From: Pseudomonadota bacterium
GTDB lineage: Bacteria; Pseudomonadota; Gammaproteobacteria; Magnimaribacterales; D2472
Length of the DNA stretch: 54,652 bases
Direction: 5' to 3'
Assembly: GCA_028404565.1 (NCBI GenBank)
Contig: JAOOBR010000006.1
Span: forward strand, 1 to 54,652
Made by a program: the position numbers and the translations under genes. How positions within the stretch are numbered: the stretch's first letter is position 1; the number at the start of each line of letters is the position of its first letter. Positions 2,667 through 30,717 of this stretch are shown here, piece by piece. Under the pieces are notes generated by a model. The model searched no databases and was not told the origin of the DNA. It worked only from the letters and a program-made list of their open reading frames with translations.

Positions 2667-3539
2667 ATGTTTAAAGATGATTTACTAAAAGATAAGAGGA
2701 TTTTAGTCACTGGAGGTGGAACTGGCCTTGGAAAAGAAATGGCAACTCACTTCGCAAAACATGGTGCTCAAGTTTATATTTGTGGAAGACGTGGAAATGT
2801 GTTGGAAGATACGGCTAATGAGCTAAAAGAAAAATATGGTGTTGATGTTAAACATGAGCCTCTAGATATTAGATCACCACAAGATGTTGACGATTACATA
2901 GGTAGAATTTTTGATGAAGGTCCTCTCGATGGTCTTGTAAACAATGCAGCAGGTAATTTTATTTCACCAACAAAGGATTTATCTTCAAGAGGGTTTGATG
3001 CAATTGCAAATATAGTTTTCCATGGAACTTTTTATGTAACTCATTCAGTTGGTAAAAGATGGATAGAGCAAAAATGTAAAGGCTCAATAATTTCTATATT
3101 AGCTACTTGGGTGTGGACAGGATCTGCTTATGTTGTGCCTTCAGCTATGTCAAAAACTGGATTAGATGCAATGACAAAATCATTGGCCGTTGAATGGGGT
3201 CCATATGGAATTAGACTGAACTCTATTGCCCCTGGACCTTTCCCAACAGAAGGTGCATGGGCCAGATTAAGTCCAAAAGGGGATATAAGTGAAGATACCT
3301 ATAAAGCTATTCCTTTGGGAAGAGCAGGAAAAATGGAAGAATTACAAAATCTAGCAACTTTTTTAATGGCTGATGGTTGTGAATATCTTACTGGACAGAC
3401 TATTGCCCTAGATGGTGCTCAGTATTTAAGTGGCGGTGGAACTTTCTCTAATTTATCAGAACTTTCAGACAATGATTGGTCTGAAATAAGAGATATAATA
3501 AGAAAAGCTAACAATAAAGATAAAAAGAATAGATCTTAA
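2667..3539 (+). CDS. SDR oxidoreductase resembling 2,4-dienoyl-CoA reductase
   Basis: This 290-residue short-chain dehydrogenase has the NADP(H) motif TGGGTGLG (15-22), NNAAGNF (92-98) and a C-terminal LTGQTIALDG. NNAAGNF, VVPSAMSKTG and GAWARLSPKG closely follow mitochondrial and peroxisomal 2,4-dienoyl-CoA reductases (from memory of that family). As in that family, the usual Y-x-x-x-K is missing: Lys163 is present but the residue four before it is Ser159. The likely role is NADPH-dependent reduction of 2,4-dienoyl-CoA during beta-oxidation of unsaturated fatty acids. A generic 3-oxoacyl reductase is the alternative. AGGGAGGAAAT-type ribosome binding sequence precedes the ATG, 9 nt after hemH. 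Confidence 0.75.
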   Translation: MFKDDLLKDKRILVTGGGTGLGKEMATHFAKHGAQVYICGRRGNVLEDTANELKEKYGVDVKHEPLDIRSPQDVDDYIGRIFDEGPLDGLVNNAAGNFISPTKDLSSRGFDAIANIVFHGTFYVTHSVGKRWIEQKCKGSIISILATWVWTGSAYVVPSAMSKTGLDAMTKSLAVEWGPYGIRLNSIAPGPFPTEGAWARLSPKGDISEDTYKAIPLGRAGKMEELQNLATFLMADGCEYLTGQTIALDGAQYLSGGGTFSNLSELSDNDWSEIRDIIRKANNKDKKNRS

Positions 3540-18958: not shown

Positions 18959-19693
18959 ATGGAATTCCTCTTTCAGGGGCTATCTCAAGAAAGCTTATGG
19001 TTAGTCGTAGTCTTTTATGACTTACTCTTAGTTGTAATTCTTTATAAATTTTTTGGTAAATATGGATTATATACTGCTGTAATCCTTGGAATTATCTTAG
19101 GAAACCTTCAAGGTGGTAAGGTTTCTGAATTTGTAATATTTGATACGACTTTCACCGTCAGTATGGGTGCAATTCTTTATTCAGGTATTTATTTTTCAAC
19201 GGATCTTCTAAACGAAAAATATGGTAAAACTGAGGCAAATAGGGCGGTAAATCTTGGCTTTTTTGCTAATGTTGCAGTTCTTTTAACTCTGCTTTTAAGT
19301 TTATTATTTAAACCTTCTGATTTAACTGGATCTGCGCTTGAAGTACATAATGCTTTATCAGTTATCGCATCATATTCACCTGCTTTTATAATAGGATCAT
19401 TAACAGCTTACTTTATTAGTCAAAAGTTTGATGTTTGGTTTTTTAACTACCTTAAAACACTTACTCAAGGAAAATATCTTTGGTTACGGAATAATCTTTC
19501 AACTATTACCTCACAATTAATAGATACATTTATTTATACATTTACGTGGGTTATAGCGACCGACTTGAGTATTTACGATGCTTTTTATATAGCTTTATCA
19601 AAATATATTTTCAAAATATTTATAGCACTGATAGATACAATATTTATTTATGGTGTAAGGAATCTAAATCCTCTTGTTAGAAATGACGAATAG
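18959..19693 (+). CDS. yhhQ: YhhQ-family queuosine precursor transporter
   Basis: This 244-residue membrane protein has about six hydrophobic helices. STDLLNEKYGKTEANRAVNLGF is the conserved loop of the DUF165/YhhQ family, which takes up 7-deazaguanine queuosine precursors (preQ0/preQ1) in E. coli. The assignment of substrate is by family only. It follows etfA closely but has no functional link to it. Its 3' end overlaps the convergent thiD gene by 17 nt. Confidence 0.75.
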   Translation: MEFLFQGLSQESLWLVVVFYDLLLVVILYKFFGKYGLYTAVILGIILGNLQGGKVSEFVIFDTTFTVSMGAILYSGIYFSTDLLNEKYGKTEANRAVNLGFFANVAVLLTLLLSLLFKPSDLTGSALEVHNALSVIASYSPAFIIGSLTAYFISQKFDVWFFNYLKTLTQGKYLWLRNNLSTITSQLIDTFIYTFTWVIATDLSIYDAFYIALSKYIFKIFIALIDTIFIYGVRNLNPLVRNDE

Positions 19694-20453
19694 GTCCATT
19701 ACCTGATCCAAAATCAGGCGCATTTTTAATACCATTTTGAACATACTCGATAGATACTTTTATAGACTCTTTTATATCATTGCCAAGACCAATATTTGTA
19801 GCTATTGCTGATGCCAATGAGCATCCAGTTCCATGAGTATTTTTACTAATAATTTTTTTGGACTCAAATATATATTCATCGCCACTAGATGTTATTAAAA
19901 CATCATTTATGATATCTGAATTACCATGACCGCCTTTAACTAATACATGTTTGCATCCAAGCTTTAATAAATTTTTTCCTGCCTCTATTTGATCTTCTAA
20001 GCAGTTAATCTTCTTTTCACTTAGTATTTCAGCTTCATATATATTTGGTGTAATTAAAAAAGATTTATTGATAAGATTATTTTTTATCGAATTTACCACT
20101 TCGTCACTCACCAGAACATCTCCTGATGTAGCAACCATAACTGGATCTAAAACGATTTTGTAATTAGAAATCTTCTTACTTATATATTCAATAATATCTA
20201 AATCCGCCAACATTCCAATTTTTACAATATCAGGAGATAGATCAGTAGTTATTGAATTAATTTGGTCCATAACTATTTCTTTTGGAAGAGGGTAGATTGA
20301 TTGGACGCCGACAGTATTTTGGGCCGTTATAGCTGTTATTGCAGTCATTGCATATCCTTTGAAATATGAAATTGTTTTAATATCAGCTTGTATGCCGGCT
20401 CCACCTCCTGAATCTGAACCAGCAATAATAAGAACTTTTGGTATAAAAGACAT
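19677..20453 (-). CDS. thiD: Hydroxymethylpyrimidine/phosphomethylpyrimidine kinase
   Basis: ThiD phosphorylates HMP and HMP-P in the thiamin pyrimidine branch. The 258-residue protein starts VLIIAGSDSGGGAGIQADIKT, the ThiD substrate-binding signature. It contains VLDPVMVATSGD, LVKGGHG, and the anion-hole motif NTHGTGCSLASAIA. No other thi genes are adjacent. Translation starts only 10 nt after the T-tract-bearing terminator of the upstream gene, with TATAAT 6 nt before the ATG and no ribosome binding sequence. The mRNA may therefore be leaderless, or arise by terminator read-through. Confidence 0.94.
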   Translation of the reverse strand: MSFIPKVLIIAGSDSGGGAGIQADIKTISYFKGYAMTAITAITAQNTVGVQSIYPLPKEIVMDQINSITTDLSPDIVKIGMLADLDIIEYISKKISNYKIVLDPVMVATSGDVLVSDEVVNSIKNNLINKSFLITPNIYEAEILSEKKINCLEDQIEAGKNLLKLGCKHVLVKGGHGNSDIINDVLITSSGDEYIFESKKIISKNTHGTGCSLASAIATNIGLGNDIKESIKVSIEYVQNGIKNAPDFGSGNGPIRHF

Positions 20454-20470
20454 TCTGTGATTATAAAAAA
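20448..20470 (-). promoter_or_regulatory. Candidate -10 element for thiD (possible leaderless transcript)
   Basis: On the minus strand a perfect TATAAT (complement of about 20458-20463) is followed by CACAGA and the thiD ATG. With usual -10 to start-site spacing, transcription would begin at or next to the A of ATG. I see no convincing -35 at 16-18 nt because that region is the terminator stem. Confidence is therefore low. Confidence 0.35.
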
Positions 20471-20494
20471 AACGCCTATCAATAGATAGGCGTT
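20463..20494 (-). terminator. Rho-independent terminator of the 20514-20951 gene
   Basis: AACGCCTATC (20471-20480) and GATAGGCGTT (20485-20494) pair perfectly over 10 bp around a 4-nt loop. On the minus strand the stem is followed by a run of T residues (complement of the A run 20465-20472, part of which lies in the stem). It lies 20 nt beyond the stop of the small membrane protein gene and directly before thiD. Confidence 0.9.
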
Positions 20495-20513
20495 AATGGA
20501 TTGCAAAACCTAT

Positions 20514-20951
20514 TTAGTCACTTGTATTAACCCATAGTGGGATTACGGCAATACCGAGAGCAGCTACTAGCATTAACATACCACCAACTTTTCCGATCAT
20601 GTTACCGCCTTCTGCCATAGCAGCTACAAATGCTTGGGAGCCTGGTCCTAGATCTACGTCTCCATTGGCTGAATCAAGTGTAGATAATGCTAATGCATGA
20701 CCTTCATATAAGCCACCAATATTCCCATATACAACTAAGCCAGATAGAAATACTCCTACAGCAAAAGCTGTAACGAATACTTTTCCTAACATGTTTACAT
20801 TTTTTTCTAGCGAAACACTACTAAATCTAGCTGCAACCCATACAGCTAAAACTATAGCAAGAAATCCAGTAGCATTTGCTGTTCTTCCAGCTGCAAACGC
20901 ATCCCACATTGCTATTTCCGCCATTGCACTTTGTACTAATGCATCTTCCAT
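20514..20951 (-). CDS. Unrecognised small integral membrane protein with strong expression signals
   Basis: I do not recognise this 145-residue protein. It is rich in Ala, Gly, Val and Met, and has about three hydrophobic helices (roughly 27-46, 60-82 and 120-141). A polar loop, EGHALALSTLDSANGDVDLGPG, lies between the last two. There is no clear cleavable signal peptide and no cysteine or histidine-rich metal site. The signals around it are unusual for this window: AGGAGG six nt before the ATG, a perfect terminator after the stop, and a visibly higher GC and different codon mix than its neighbours. All three point to an abundant, single-gene transcript. Function unknown. Confidence 0.85.
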   Translation of the reverse strand: MEDALVQSAMAEIAMWDAFAAGRTANATGFLAIVLAVWVAARFSSVSLEKNVNMLGKVFVTAFAVGVFLSGLVVYGNIGGLYEGHALALSTLDSANGDVDLGPGSQAFVAAMAEGGNMIGKVGGMLMLVAALGIAVIPLWVNTSD

Positions 20952-21063
20952 ACTTATCCTCCTAATATGTAAGTAAGTTAATAAAATTTACCTCCCTGTA
21001 TATATGATACATACTTTTTTGTATTCTATTTATAGATTTCTTAAATTTTTGTACTATGTGTAT

Positions 21064-21596: not shown

Positions 21597-22466
21597 TTAA
21601 TCTTTTATAAACCAAAATAATAATTGTGGTGTTTTATCCATATATTCCTTGTAGTCAGGTCTTTTTTTAAGACTTCTGTTGTCCATCATAGGACATGAAA
21701 TAAATACAAATAAGGCTAACATTACTAATGGACAAGCTAATAGCCACAAAGGTGTTGACCCCGAAGCAAGAGCAAATATATATATACCAAACCAAAAACT
21801 TACTTCACCAAGATAATTAGGATGTCTTGAGTATTTCCATAATCCATATTTCATAGTTTTACCCAAGTTATTGATATCTTTTCTAAAATTTCTCATTTGA
21901 TCATCTGAAATATACTGAACGGTAACCGCAACTGCTATTAATATAAAACCAACATAAACAAGGTTGTTTAAGTCTTCTGAAGTTAAAGCTACATAAATAG
22001 GGTAGAGACTTATGTTTACAATCAATGTTGGGATAAGATGGATTCCAAAAAGATCGTTAATAAACGCCAAGAGTCTATTATTATTTTTTAAATCTATATA
22101 TCTAAAGTCTTCATGATCTAAATTAGTCCAATTAAGAAACCAGTTATAAGTTAACCTCAGTGCCCAAAATAGAAATCCCGATATTACTAAACTTTGTTCT
22201 AGATTAGATAAAGATGATTGATTAGAAATATAGAAGACTATTGGTATTGGTGCTACATGCCAAAAAGGATCGTAAATACTTGAATTTTTGTGAATATTAG
22301 AAAATAAGAAAATAATTAAGGTGGCAGTTATGTGCCAAACTAATATAAGAAGCCAACCATCAAGATCAAGGTTTTTAGTAAACAGGAATGCTAGATAGAA
22401 AGAAATTAAATAGTATAAAAAAACTAAGGCAAGACTTCCGTGTTTGGTTTTAATTAGATTCTGCAA
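21597..22466 (-). CDS. DUF1295 / steroid 5-alpha-reductase-like membrane protein
   Basis: This 289-residue protein has seven or so hydrophobic helices. The C-terminal GLWKYSRHPNYLGEVSFWFG is the conserved NADPH-binding region of DUF1295 and the steroid reductase/isoprenylcysteine methyltransferase superfamily. A double-bond reduction of a lipid or isoprenoid substrate is possible; the substrate is unknown. The start overlaps the upstream TPR gene by 17 nt, implying coupled translation of two membrane proteins. Confidence 0.75.
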   Translation of the reverse strand: MQNLIKTKHGSLALVFLYYLISFYLAFLFTKNLDLDGWLLILVWHITATLIIFLFSNIHKNSSIYDPFWHVAPIPIVFYISNQSSLSNLEQSLVISGFLFWALRLTYNWFLNWTNLDHEDFRYIDLKNNNRLLAFINDLFGIHLIPTLIVNISLYPIYVALTSEDLNNLVYVGFILIAVAVTVQYISDDQMRNFRKDINNLGKTMKYGLWKYSRHPNYLGEVSFWFGIYIFALASGSTPLWLLACPLVMLALFVFISCPMMDNRSLKKRPDYKEYMDKTPQLLFWFIKD

Positions 22467-26368: not shown

Positions 26369-27049
26369 ATGAAAAAATTATTAACTTTATCGATTTTAAG
26401 TTTATCAATCTATTCAGTATCTGATGGTCATCCTGAAGGTGCATTTAACACTTTATTTGTTAAAGCTGCTGATGTAGATAGATATGTAACTTATATGAAA
26501 AATAATCCAGCTGTTTTTGAACAAACTGGAGTTGATGTTGCAGGCGTTTGTGTGACGACTTCTGGACAATCTTATCCAGGTCAAATGTTTGTATGGAATG
26601 CTTTTTCAAGCACTGAAGTCGCTATGAATGCATCGACTTTATATGATCCATTTAAAGCTAATTCTTCATTTCAAAGACTCAGAGAGCCAATGTTTACAGC
26701 TACTTTTGTTCCTTTAAAGGCATTTGAGCTAGATCCAGGGTTTGAAAGAGTCTGGAAAGTTAGATTAAATGATTGGAAATCTTATGTTGAAGCTATGACG
26801 AAATTAGAAAAAGCACAACAAGAAGCAGGTCATGATGTTCAAATTGGTGTTTTTGCACCTATTGGTGGAGGAACTGAAGCATTTCATTTGAGAACTATTC
26901 ATGAAAACGGTGCAGATGCCGGAAGAATTATTGATGAATATCTAGCAGGTGCATCCTGGGGATCGCTTTGGGATGAAGCACAACAGTATGTTGATGAAAT
27001 TGTTGAAGAGACTGTTGAGCAATGCCAAATAATATATTCTTCTGAATAA
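26369..27049 (+). CDS. Unrecognised exported protein, probably two alpha/beta repeats
   Basis: This 226-residue protein starts MKKLLTLSILSLSIYSVSDG, a signal peptide with likely cleavage near residue 20. The mature part looks like two related halves of ferredoxin-like (dimeric alpha-beta barrel) character: FNTLFVKAADVDRYVTYM near the start and WKVRLNDWKSYVEAMTKL near 130. This repeat call is by eye. TCGGAGGAAATTTT before the ATG is one of the strongest ribosome binding sites in the window. It is followed 10 nt later by an exported cupin and then a terminator, so the pair is a small operon. Function unknown. Confidence 0.7.
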   Translation: MKKLLTLSILSLSIYSVSDGHPEGAFNTLFVKAADVDRYVTYMKNNPAVFEQTGVDVAGVCVTTSGQSYPGQMFVWNAFSSTEVAMNASTLYDPFKANSSFQRLREPMFTATFVPLKAFELDPGFERVWKVRLNDWKSYVEAMTKLEKAQQEAGHDVQIGVFAPIGGGTEAFHLRTIHENGADAGRIIDEYLAGASWGSLWDEAQQYVDEIVEETVEQCQIIYSSE

Positions 27050-27059
27050 GGAGTTATTT

Positions 27060-27455
27060 ATGTATAAATATTTTTTATTAACAATCTTAATTAGTTCTCC
27101 AATATTTAGTGACGATGAACCAACATTTCCAGGTTTGGTATCTAGCGAAGTGTTTGGACTGGGAAATGGAATGGTAATGCATGTTGAAAGAAGAAACTCA
27201 TGTAATCAAGATGGAACGCCTAAACACTTTCATCCAGCTGCAGGAACTCTTGTGTATGTTCTTGATGGTACTTCACAATCAAAATCATCAGGAGATTGGA
27301 AAAATTATTCAAAGAATGAGTATTGGTTTGAAAGATCAGACTGGGTACACGGTGGTGAAGAAGATACACCATCATTACCTGAAGGAACTTGCCAACAACT
27401 TCTAGTTGTAAGAGTTGCTGAAGAGGGCAAAGATCATACAGTATTTATAGATTAA
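27060..27455 (+). CDS. Exported cupin-domain protein
   Basis: This 131-residue protein has a signal peptide (MYKYFLLTILISSPIFS, cleavage near 17-18) and one cupin domain. The first cupin motif is visible as KHFHPAAGTLVYVLDG, and the second around ERSDWVHGGE, giving candidate metal-binding histidines. Small single-cupin exported proteins bind or modify small ligands; nothing more specific can be said. AAGGAG precedes the ATG. It ends the two-gene unit with the exported protein upstream. Confidence 0.72.
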   Translation: MYKYFLLTILISSPIFSDDEPTFPGLVSSEVFGLGNGMVMHVERRNSCNQDGTPKHFHPAAGTLVYVLDGTSQSKSSGDWKNYSKNEYWFERSDWVHGGEEDTPSLPEGTCQQLLVVRVAEEGKDHTVFID

Positions 27456-30411: not shown

Positions 30412-30717
30412 ATGAAAAATTTAGTTATTGTTTCTTTTCCTGCTAAACCAGAAACTCTTGAAACACTTAAAGAGGCTATGAGAAGGGCGCTTCCTGATAC
30501 TAGAAACTATGAAGGTTGCTTATCTGTAAATACATTTATTGAGGAATCAACTAATACTATTCATCTCATTGAAGATTGGGAAACACTTGATCATCAAGAA
30601 ACATATCTCAGCTGGAGAGTTGAAACTGGATTACTAACAGATTTAGATCACTTATTGGATGGGGGAGCTGCTGCTATTAAGGTTGTTATATGCGGTCCAG
30701 AACATCAGGATATATAA
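30412..30717 (+). CDS. Antibiotic biosynthesis monooxygenase (ABM) domain protein
   Basis: This 101-residue single-domain protein of dimeric alpha-beta barrel type begins NLVIVSFPAKPETLETLKEAMRRALPDTRNYEGCLS. The TRNYEGCLS turn and IHLIEDWETLDHQETYLSW are the hallmark blocks of ABM/putative quinol monooxygenase proteins. Members act on quinols or reactive carbonyl compounds, or have unknown roles. GGAGTTATT places a ribosome binding site in front of the ATG. It stands alone between divergent and convergent neighbours. Confidence 0.75.
   Translation: MKNLVIVSFPAKPETLETLKEAMRRALPDTRNYEGCLSVNTFIEESTNTIHLIEDWETLDHQETYLSWRVETGLLTDLDHLLDGGAAAIKVVICGPEHQDI

Follow-up and report, generated by a model that had tools for sequence, protein, structure and literature searches.

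A stretch of 54,652 nucleotides from the genome of a bacterium of the ocean order SAR86, here called the window, carries a gene for a three-helix membrane protein of 145 amino acids whose family has so far been found only in this order among the sampled genomes, and whose strong expression signals recur across the family. Few uncultivated bacteria of the surface ocean are as numerous as SAR86, whose genome is small. The open frame is a real gene, and its product can be modelled with confidence as a monomer. As the best account of these findings we consider an abundant, self-packing and SAR86-specific protein of the inner membrane with a structural or organising role, which is a tentative interpretation that we hold at somewhat less than even probability. 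The gene, its signals and two further genes that might be associated with it are listed in Table 1.

Table 1. Coordinates in the window of the gene for the three-helix protein, its signals and two possible associates.
Feature	Position	Strand	Evidence or remark
Coding sequence, 145-aa three-helix membrane protein	20514..20951	-	ATG-start open frame; in-frame conserved homologues; AlphaFold2 pLDDT 90.8
Ribosome-binding site AGGAGG, 6 nt before ATG	20958..20963	-	Invariant in 7/7 aligned congeners
Terminator hairpin, 10 perfect pairs	20471..20494	-	Aligned in 7/7 congeners; 10 pairs in the window and in each of the six others
T-tail of the terminator	20463..20470	-	Sequence; congener alignment
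Intergenic stretch upstream, which has to contain the promoter (none of the listed consensus sites)	20964..21063	-	Upper limit taken from relatives, in which the divergent gene starts with MNSD
Possible associate, secreted 226-aa protein of cluster c33	26369..27049	+	Relatives adjoin other family members; ribosome site -9.5, third of 49; a lead only
Possible associate, small secreted cupin-like protein	27060..27455	+	Relatives next to c45 near family genes; ribosome site -8.8, fifth of 49; a lead only

The stand-alone layout that a preliminary description of this DNA had pointed out is borne out by the neighbouring genes. On the downstream side, thiD (19677-20453) lies on the same strand but only past the hairpin, and it is followed by a queuosine-precursor transporter, both exceeding the NCBIfam cut-offs. 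The upstream neighbour is a frame of 195 amino acids on the opposite strand that has no NCBIfam or Pfam match. A scan of the window against Rfam matched no RNA element. A second Shine-Dalgarno-like motif, AGGGAGG, is found at 20991-20997 on the minus strand, about 40 nt upstream of the ATG; it is also present in the loci L036 and L037 and missing in L032-L035. Two other frames of the window exceed Pfam cut-offs, namely a DUF1295 membrane enzyme at 21597-22466 (minus strand), a relative of which (cluster c5) adjoins three-helix family genes in other SAR86 genomes (L096, L097, L119 and L051), and a small protein with an antibiotic biosynthesis monooxygenase (ABM) domain at 30412-30717 (plus strand).

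The ribosome-binding site falls just outside the interval that the preliminary description had assigned to the gene. None of the other 50 non-overlapping open reading frames of at least 60 amino acids in the window (51 in all) has a perfect AGGAGG in the 16 nt that precede the longest-frame start. By pairing energy with the anti-Shine-Dalgarno sequence (-10.2) it ranks second of the 49 frames of at least 100 amino acids, behind the frame at 2667-3539 (-11.9), and the other 48 frames have a mean of -2.9 with a standard deviation of 3.8. To describe it as the strongest ribosome site in the window therefore comes close without being strictly correct. The terminator, which had been called perfect, is the best of the 31 terminator-like matches in the window (14+12+5), none of the others combining 10 pairs with 5 G-C pairs. 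The composition of the gene also stands out. Its GC content of 0.411 and the 42% share of alanine, glycine and valine in its product are both the highest of the 51 frames, in agreement with the contrast that had been noted. However, GC at third codon positions (0.207) is ordinary among the same frames, and the GC contrast thus comes from the amino acids. The side-chain nitrogen content of the protein is the third lowest of the 49 frames.

These expression signals are not a one-off but recur across the family, in copies that are old and diverged. With one entry per identical start region, the best-start pairing energy averages -8.8 in 57 unique members, compared with -2.5 in 411 neighbour genes; this set retains a few mis-called starts, which are internal for L052 (4998), L053 and L110 and wrongly placed upstream for L117. 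A perfect AGGAGG is found in 16 of the 57 members and GGAG in 54. When 100 nt of downstream sequence were required and identical downstream stretches were dropped, a terminator within 110 nt was found for 51 of 64 members and for 28 of 414 neighbours. Where present, the family terminators begin 7-27 nt past the stop codon, and they also occur in 11 of the 16 tandem copies that precede another copy. The upstream gap to a non-family neighbour is 46-187 nt in 43 of 45 cases. In two loci, L095:4350-5536 and L102:3978-5416, the family gene shares 4 nt with the next frame on the same strand and no terminator was detected, in contrast to the layout of most members; the overlapped gene of L095 encodes a secreted lipoprotein-like protein of cluster c72, and that of L102 reads by eye as an alpha/beta hydrolase.

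It could be argued that such signals have little bearing on the amount of protein, since a strong site and a terminator might be typical of any stand-alone gene in this lineage, and that the three-helix protein is an ordinary minor membrane protein. Ten neighbour genes that have a 40-nt upstream gap and a terminator also possess fairly strong ribosome sites (mean -6.6), indicating that part of the site strength goes with standing alone. In line with a minor protein, no sigma-70-like promoter upstream of the gene on the minus strand is among the 60 listed of 74 promoter matches. The family mean nevertheless exceeds that of this stand-alone control, albeit a small one, and the scarcity of terminators among the neighbour genes does not suggest that they are a common feature of genes in the lineage. 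We regard a minor protein as unlikely, but as an explanation to be taken seriously. Some neighbours, those of cluster c30 (by eye SCO1-like), reach the same site strength inside operons.

The codon usage of the gene, which the preliminary description had suggested comparing with that of ribosomal proteins, points against abundance rather than for it and does not serve as a proof of it. As a search of the incomplete assembly that contains the window did not detect genes for L5 and L7/L12, the ribosomal cluster of the congener G004 was taken as reference; its 27 "ribosomal" genes include those for RpoA and EF-G and leave out SecY. The three-helix gene scores -0.029 and ranks 45 of 49 window frames, and resampling under ribosomal usage gave a score this low in only 0.4% of cases, which would fit a minor protein. 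The test has little power, however, because ribosomal genes in this lineage are hardly biased: in leave-one-out scoring they reach a mean of 0.011 and thereby barely differ from the window genes at -0.017. Codon usage is accordingly weak evidence against abundance. In this SAR86 genus, the ribosomal-cluster genes (locus L093, set against the window frames) thus display almost no codon adaptation.

A membrane protein of about 145 residues with three helices and an acidic, glycine-rich loop had been predicted, and two methods agree on three main helices and an acidic loop that contains glycine. A single-chain AlphaFold2 model of the window protein, built on 22 sequences, has a mean pLDDT of 90.8 and a pTM of 0.75 and places helices at residues 2-49, 54-96, 103-113 and 118-140, while hydropathy indicates three membrane stretches in windows centred at 27-41, 60-74 and 124-136. 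A paralogue of 37% identity yields a similar arrangement (pLDDT 90.2, pTM 0.71; helices 2-39, 44-84, 91-100 and 109-127). With 48 and 43 residues, the first two helices of the window protein are far longer than a bilayer needs and must project on one side. Charges averaged over 60 members are +2.60/-1.03 for the hairpin at residues 40-60, +0.77/-2.73 for residues 1-30 and +0.67/-4.75 for residues 76-118. Applying the positive-inside rule to this distribution, we infer that the hairpin is inside, the acidic part outside and the topology N-out/C-in. Near-invariant among the 60 members are W38, R42 and K57 (59 each) as well as W140 (all 60), and residue 61 is always Thr or Ser; N53 is found in 49. 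All of these positions probably lie near the cytoplasmic edge of the membrane.

From these features, a mechanism can be proposed for the structural role that we favour. The protein would be a bulk product of a short transcript that serves this gene alone. A hairpin with its turn towards the cytoplasm would be formed by helix 1 (2-49) together with helix 2 (54-96), and both long helices would reach past the bilayer into an acidic periplasmic part that includes the short helix 103-113, from which helix 3 (118-140) would return to the cytoplasm. W38, R42, N53, K57 and W140 might fix the bundle at the cytoplasmic lipid interface, copies could pack side by side via their Ala/Gly-rich faces, and the packed copies would then give structure or order to the inner membrane of SAR86.

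The family is confined to the SAR86 order among the genomes sampled so far. A search with the single protein gave matches in 41 of 61 relatives, its own genome counted. With a profile of 23 rows, matches were obtained in 143 of the 199 genomes available for the order, including 35 of the 40 near-complete ones, and a profile of 41 rows likewise found 143 genomes. At E <= 0.001, 4 of 369 genomes in a sample of the class were matched, all four within the order, and the only match among 299 genomes in a sample of the phylum was the genome of the window itself; neither sample contained a match outside the order at this threshold. The assignment of the window to a SAR86 genome agrees with the 25 loci that were found in named records, 24 of which carry the label SAR86 cluster, the remaining one being from a gammaproteobacterial MAG. 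A wider range was considered on the basis of the iterated 41-member profile, as 28 of 32 class-sample genomes at E <= 0.1 lie outside the order (E 0.0014-0.0985), but it was rejected: every matched genome within the order has a best E of at most 3.5e-18, the best outsider only 0.0014, and most outsider rows are limited to a small portion of the profile and fall within long frames. An origin from phages, viral contigs or plasmids was also rejected, because 50,697 phage records, plasmids and viral contigs contained no relative.

Genomes possess one to four copies of the gene, often head to tail, and the window assembly, which is 79% complete, shows one. The absence of the family from five of the 40 near-complete genomes shows that it is not essential to all SAR86, which again would fit a minor protein. 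In contrast, the persistence of old paralogues in small genomes speaks against a minor protein. In a tree of 60 unique members from the fetched loci, which served also for the conservation counts, represents only part of the matched genomes and carries a long-branch warning, the tandem copies of one family of the order (f3) are spread over different supported branches, which reappear from genus to genus, and the copies are therefore old paralogues rather than recent duplicates. The members from the order families f1 and f3 need at least five and at least three label changes, respectively, on starred branches of this tree. In four genomes of family f2 (G743, G751, G757 and G773), a TAA is reported inside the profile match, in one copy each.

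The dN/dS values of the three-helix gene against six congeners range from 0.035 to 0.148, and those of thiD against three of these six from 0.10 to 0.11. Relative to thiD, the three-helix gene is under stronger constraint among the nearest congeners, but not among farther ones, as in the comparison with L036 (0.148 for the three-helix gene, 0.110 for thiD).

A partner gene that is kept across the family was sought, but none was seen in the fetched loci. The contexts include thiD/etf and, assigned by eye, hisG, hisDB and trmA, and in f3 the arrays of family genes adjoin genes that by eye encode SCO1, heme O synthase and heme A synthase. This last context could point to an accessory subunit of a respiratory membrane complex such as cytochrome oxidase. 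It is restricted to f3, however, and over the 60 members no His or Cys column that could serve heme or a metal reaches 55% conservation. Further, no usable PDB sequence or fold match was obtained, chains of mycobacterial supercomplexes appearing only at E >= 2, and we think that a respiratory role is very unlikely. The membrane anchors of succinate dehydrogenase, SdhC and SdhD, have a conserved heme-ligand histidine in a membrane helix, and this identity was rejected for want of such a column.

More attention is deserved by secreted proteins of about 230-260 amino acids, which form four clusters (c33, c45, c59 and c72) and whose genes occupy 9 of the 104 slots adjacent to family genes, in six contexts, compared with 0 of 290 slots at distances 2-4. 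Together with a small secreted cupin-like protein they also have some of the strongest ribosome sites among the neighbours, as do unrelated ones such as the SCO1-like c30, and in the window the c33 gene and the cupin gene are situated about 5.4 kb from the three-helix gene; congeners too have a c33 or c45 gene at about this distance, which in G005 is one of c45. The three-helix protein could thus be the membrane half of an envelope system of SAR86, a channel or docking base that acts with the secreted proteins and the cupin in the binding or uptake of small molecules. The adjacency had been noticed before it was counted, and on related genomes, so that it provides a lead only; moreover, the filter for secreted neighbours was a hydropathy rule that also picked thiD (falsely) and others, and the four clusters were chosen by eye. 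Most family loci have no such neighbour, the immediate neighbours in the window are different ones, and the many copies in some genomes raise the chance of adjacency. Searches of 61 genomes detected c33 in 25 and c45 in 31, in many cases 16-81 kb away from the family gene or on a different contig. Additional c33 genes are situated at distances 5-6 in L055 and in the window, with shorter pieces in L049, L052 and L054. We consider this division of labour rather improbable. An extended version, in which SAR86 has an envelope system of its own that comprises abundant three-helix proteins in several old versions, matched secreted double-domain proteins and the cupin, and that evolved with the order as an apparatus for periplasmic capture or membrane organisation, appears distinctly improbable to us.

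As judged by eye from their sequences, the proteins of all four secreted clusters may each consist of two beta-alpha-beta-beta-alpha units. The four profile pairs that were compared did not reveal homology among the clusters, which does not favour a common envelope system, and the secreted neighbours tried gave no meaningful Pfam row and no NCBIfam or PDB match. The cupin-like protein matches Cupin_2 weakly and below the cut-off (E 0.0051). In f3, genes of c33 and c45 in L041-type genomes stand head to tail with up to four in a row (e.g. G041:C1:234005-235417 and G047:C2:60048-62895) and form a multi-copy secreted family that has no Pfam or NCBIfam match.

The preliminary description had placed the three-helix protein in no family, and had named a clear match to a known one as a finding that would speak against it; comparison with Pfam, NCBIfam, PHROGs, PDB sequences and folds and viral folds gave nothing usable. 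The single Pfam row of the window protein, DUF7472 (PF24284), covers only 24 residues (53-76) with E 0.12 and 13 bits, far under the cut-off of 27, and reflects a resemblance of hydrophobic helices. When 23 members were scanned, the best Pfam match was TrbL_2 in one member (E 0.00042), and TRAP-gamma was matched by two (E 0.1 at best); both were rejected as hydrophobic-helix noise. NCBIfam gave no row for the window protein, and PHROGs no significant match, the best being a family of unknown function (E 0.027). With phmmer no PDB sequence was found at E <= 10, and V-ATPase subunit a, as the sole profile match in the PDB (E 2.9), was not usable. Foldseek searches with both models found nothing at E <= 0.001, although a protein of known structure may share the fold despite the lack of a match. 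VIA-align reported Z scores up to 10.3 to designed bundles and SPX domains, values that according to the tool could arise by chance between helical bundles; such designed and natural three-helix bundles in the PDB (e.g. 6r2g, 8ek4, 6m6z and SPX domains) share the general arrangement of long helices, but with Foldseek E values of 0.45 or worse they do not indicate an evolutionary link to the protein. A literature search covering titles and the starts of abstracts found no paper that treats it. The family is new in the sense that the databases and samples searched contain no sequence or fold relative outside the order.

Unknown gene families that are specific to clades of uncultivated taxa have been collected in the FESNov catalogue (PMC10849945), and a second study (PMC8371827) states that more than 40% of the genes in its genomes are frequently annotated as hypothetical. 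The catalogue calls a family clade-specific if it is present in at least 90% of the genomes of a clade and all of its members are in that clade (PMC10849945). In our class and phylum samples all members of the three-helix family fall within the order, and its coverage is slightly under 90% in the near-complete genomes and lower in all 199. It thus resembles the FESNov families in its confinement to an order, its occurrence in uncultivated bacteria and its purifying selection. The name SAR86 occurs 0 times in the main text of PMC10849945, and the family may already be catalogued, without a function, in the tables of that paper.

For metaproteomics the family would be a ready marker that is specific to SAR86. 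If the protein is abundant, it would represent a sizeable and so far unnamed part of the membrane in a major ocean group. The lack of relatives outside the order does not imply a new mechanism, and the function may prove ordinary. A known small and abundant envelope protein is the major lipoprotein Lpp, which is encoded by a short stand-alone gene with a strong ribosome site and a strong terminator and is an Ala-rich helical product. Unlike Lpp, the three-helix protein has three membrane helices and no lipoprotein signal, and no sequence relation is claimed; it is in the design of the gene and in the Ala-rich helical product, and hence only in the manner of working, that the three-helix gene resembles that of Lpp.
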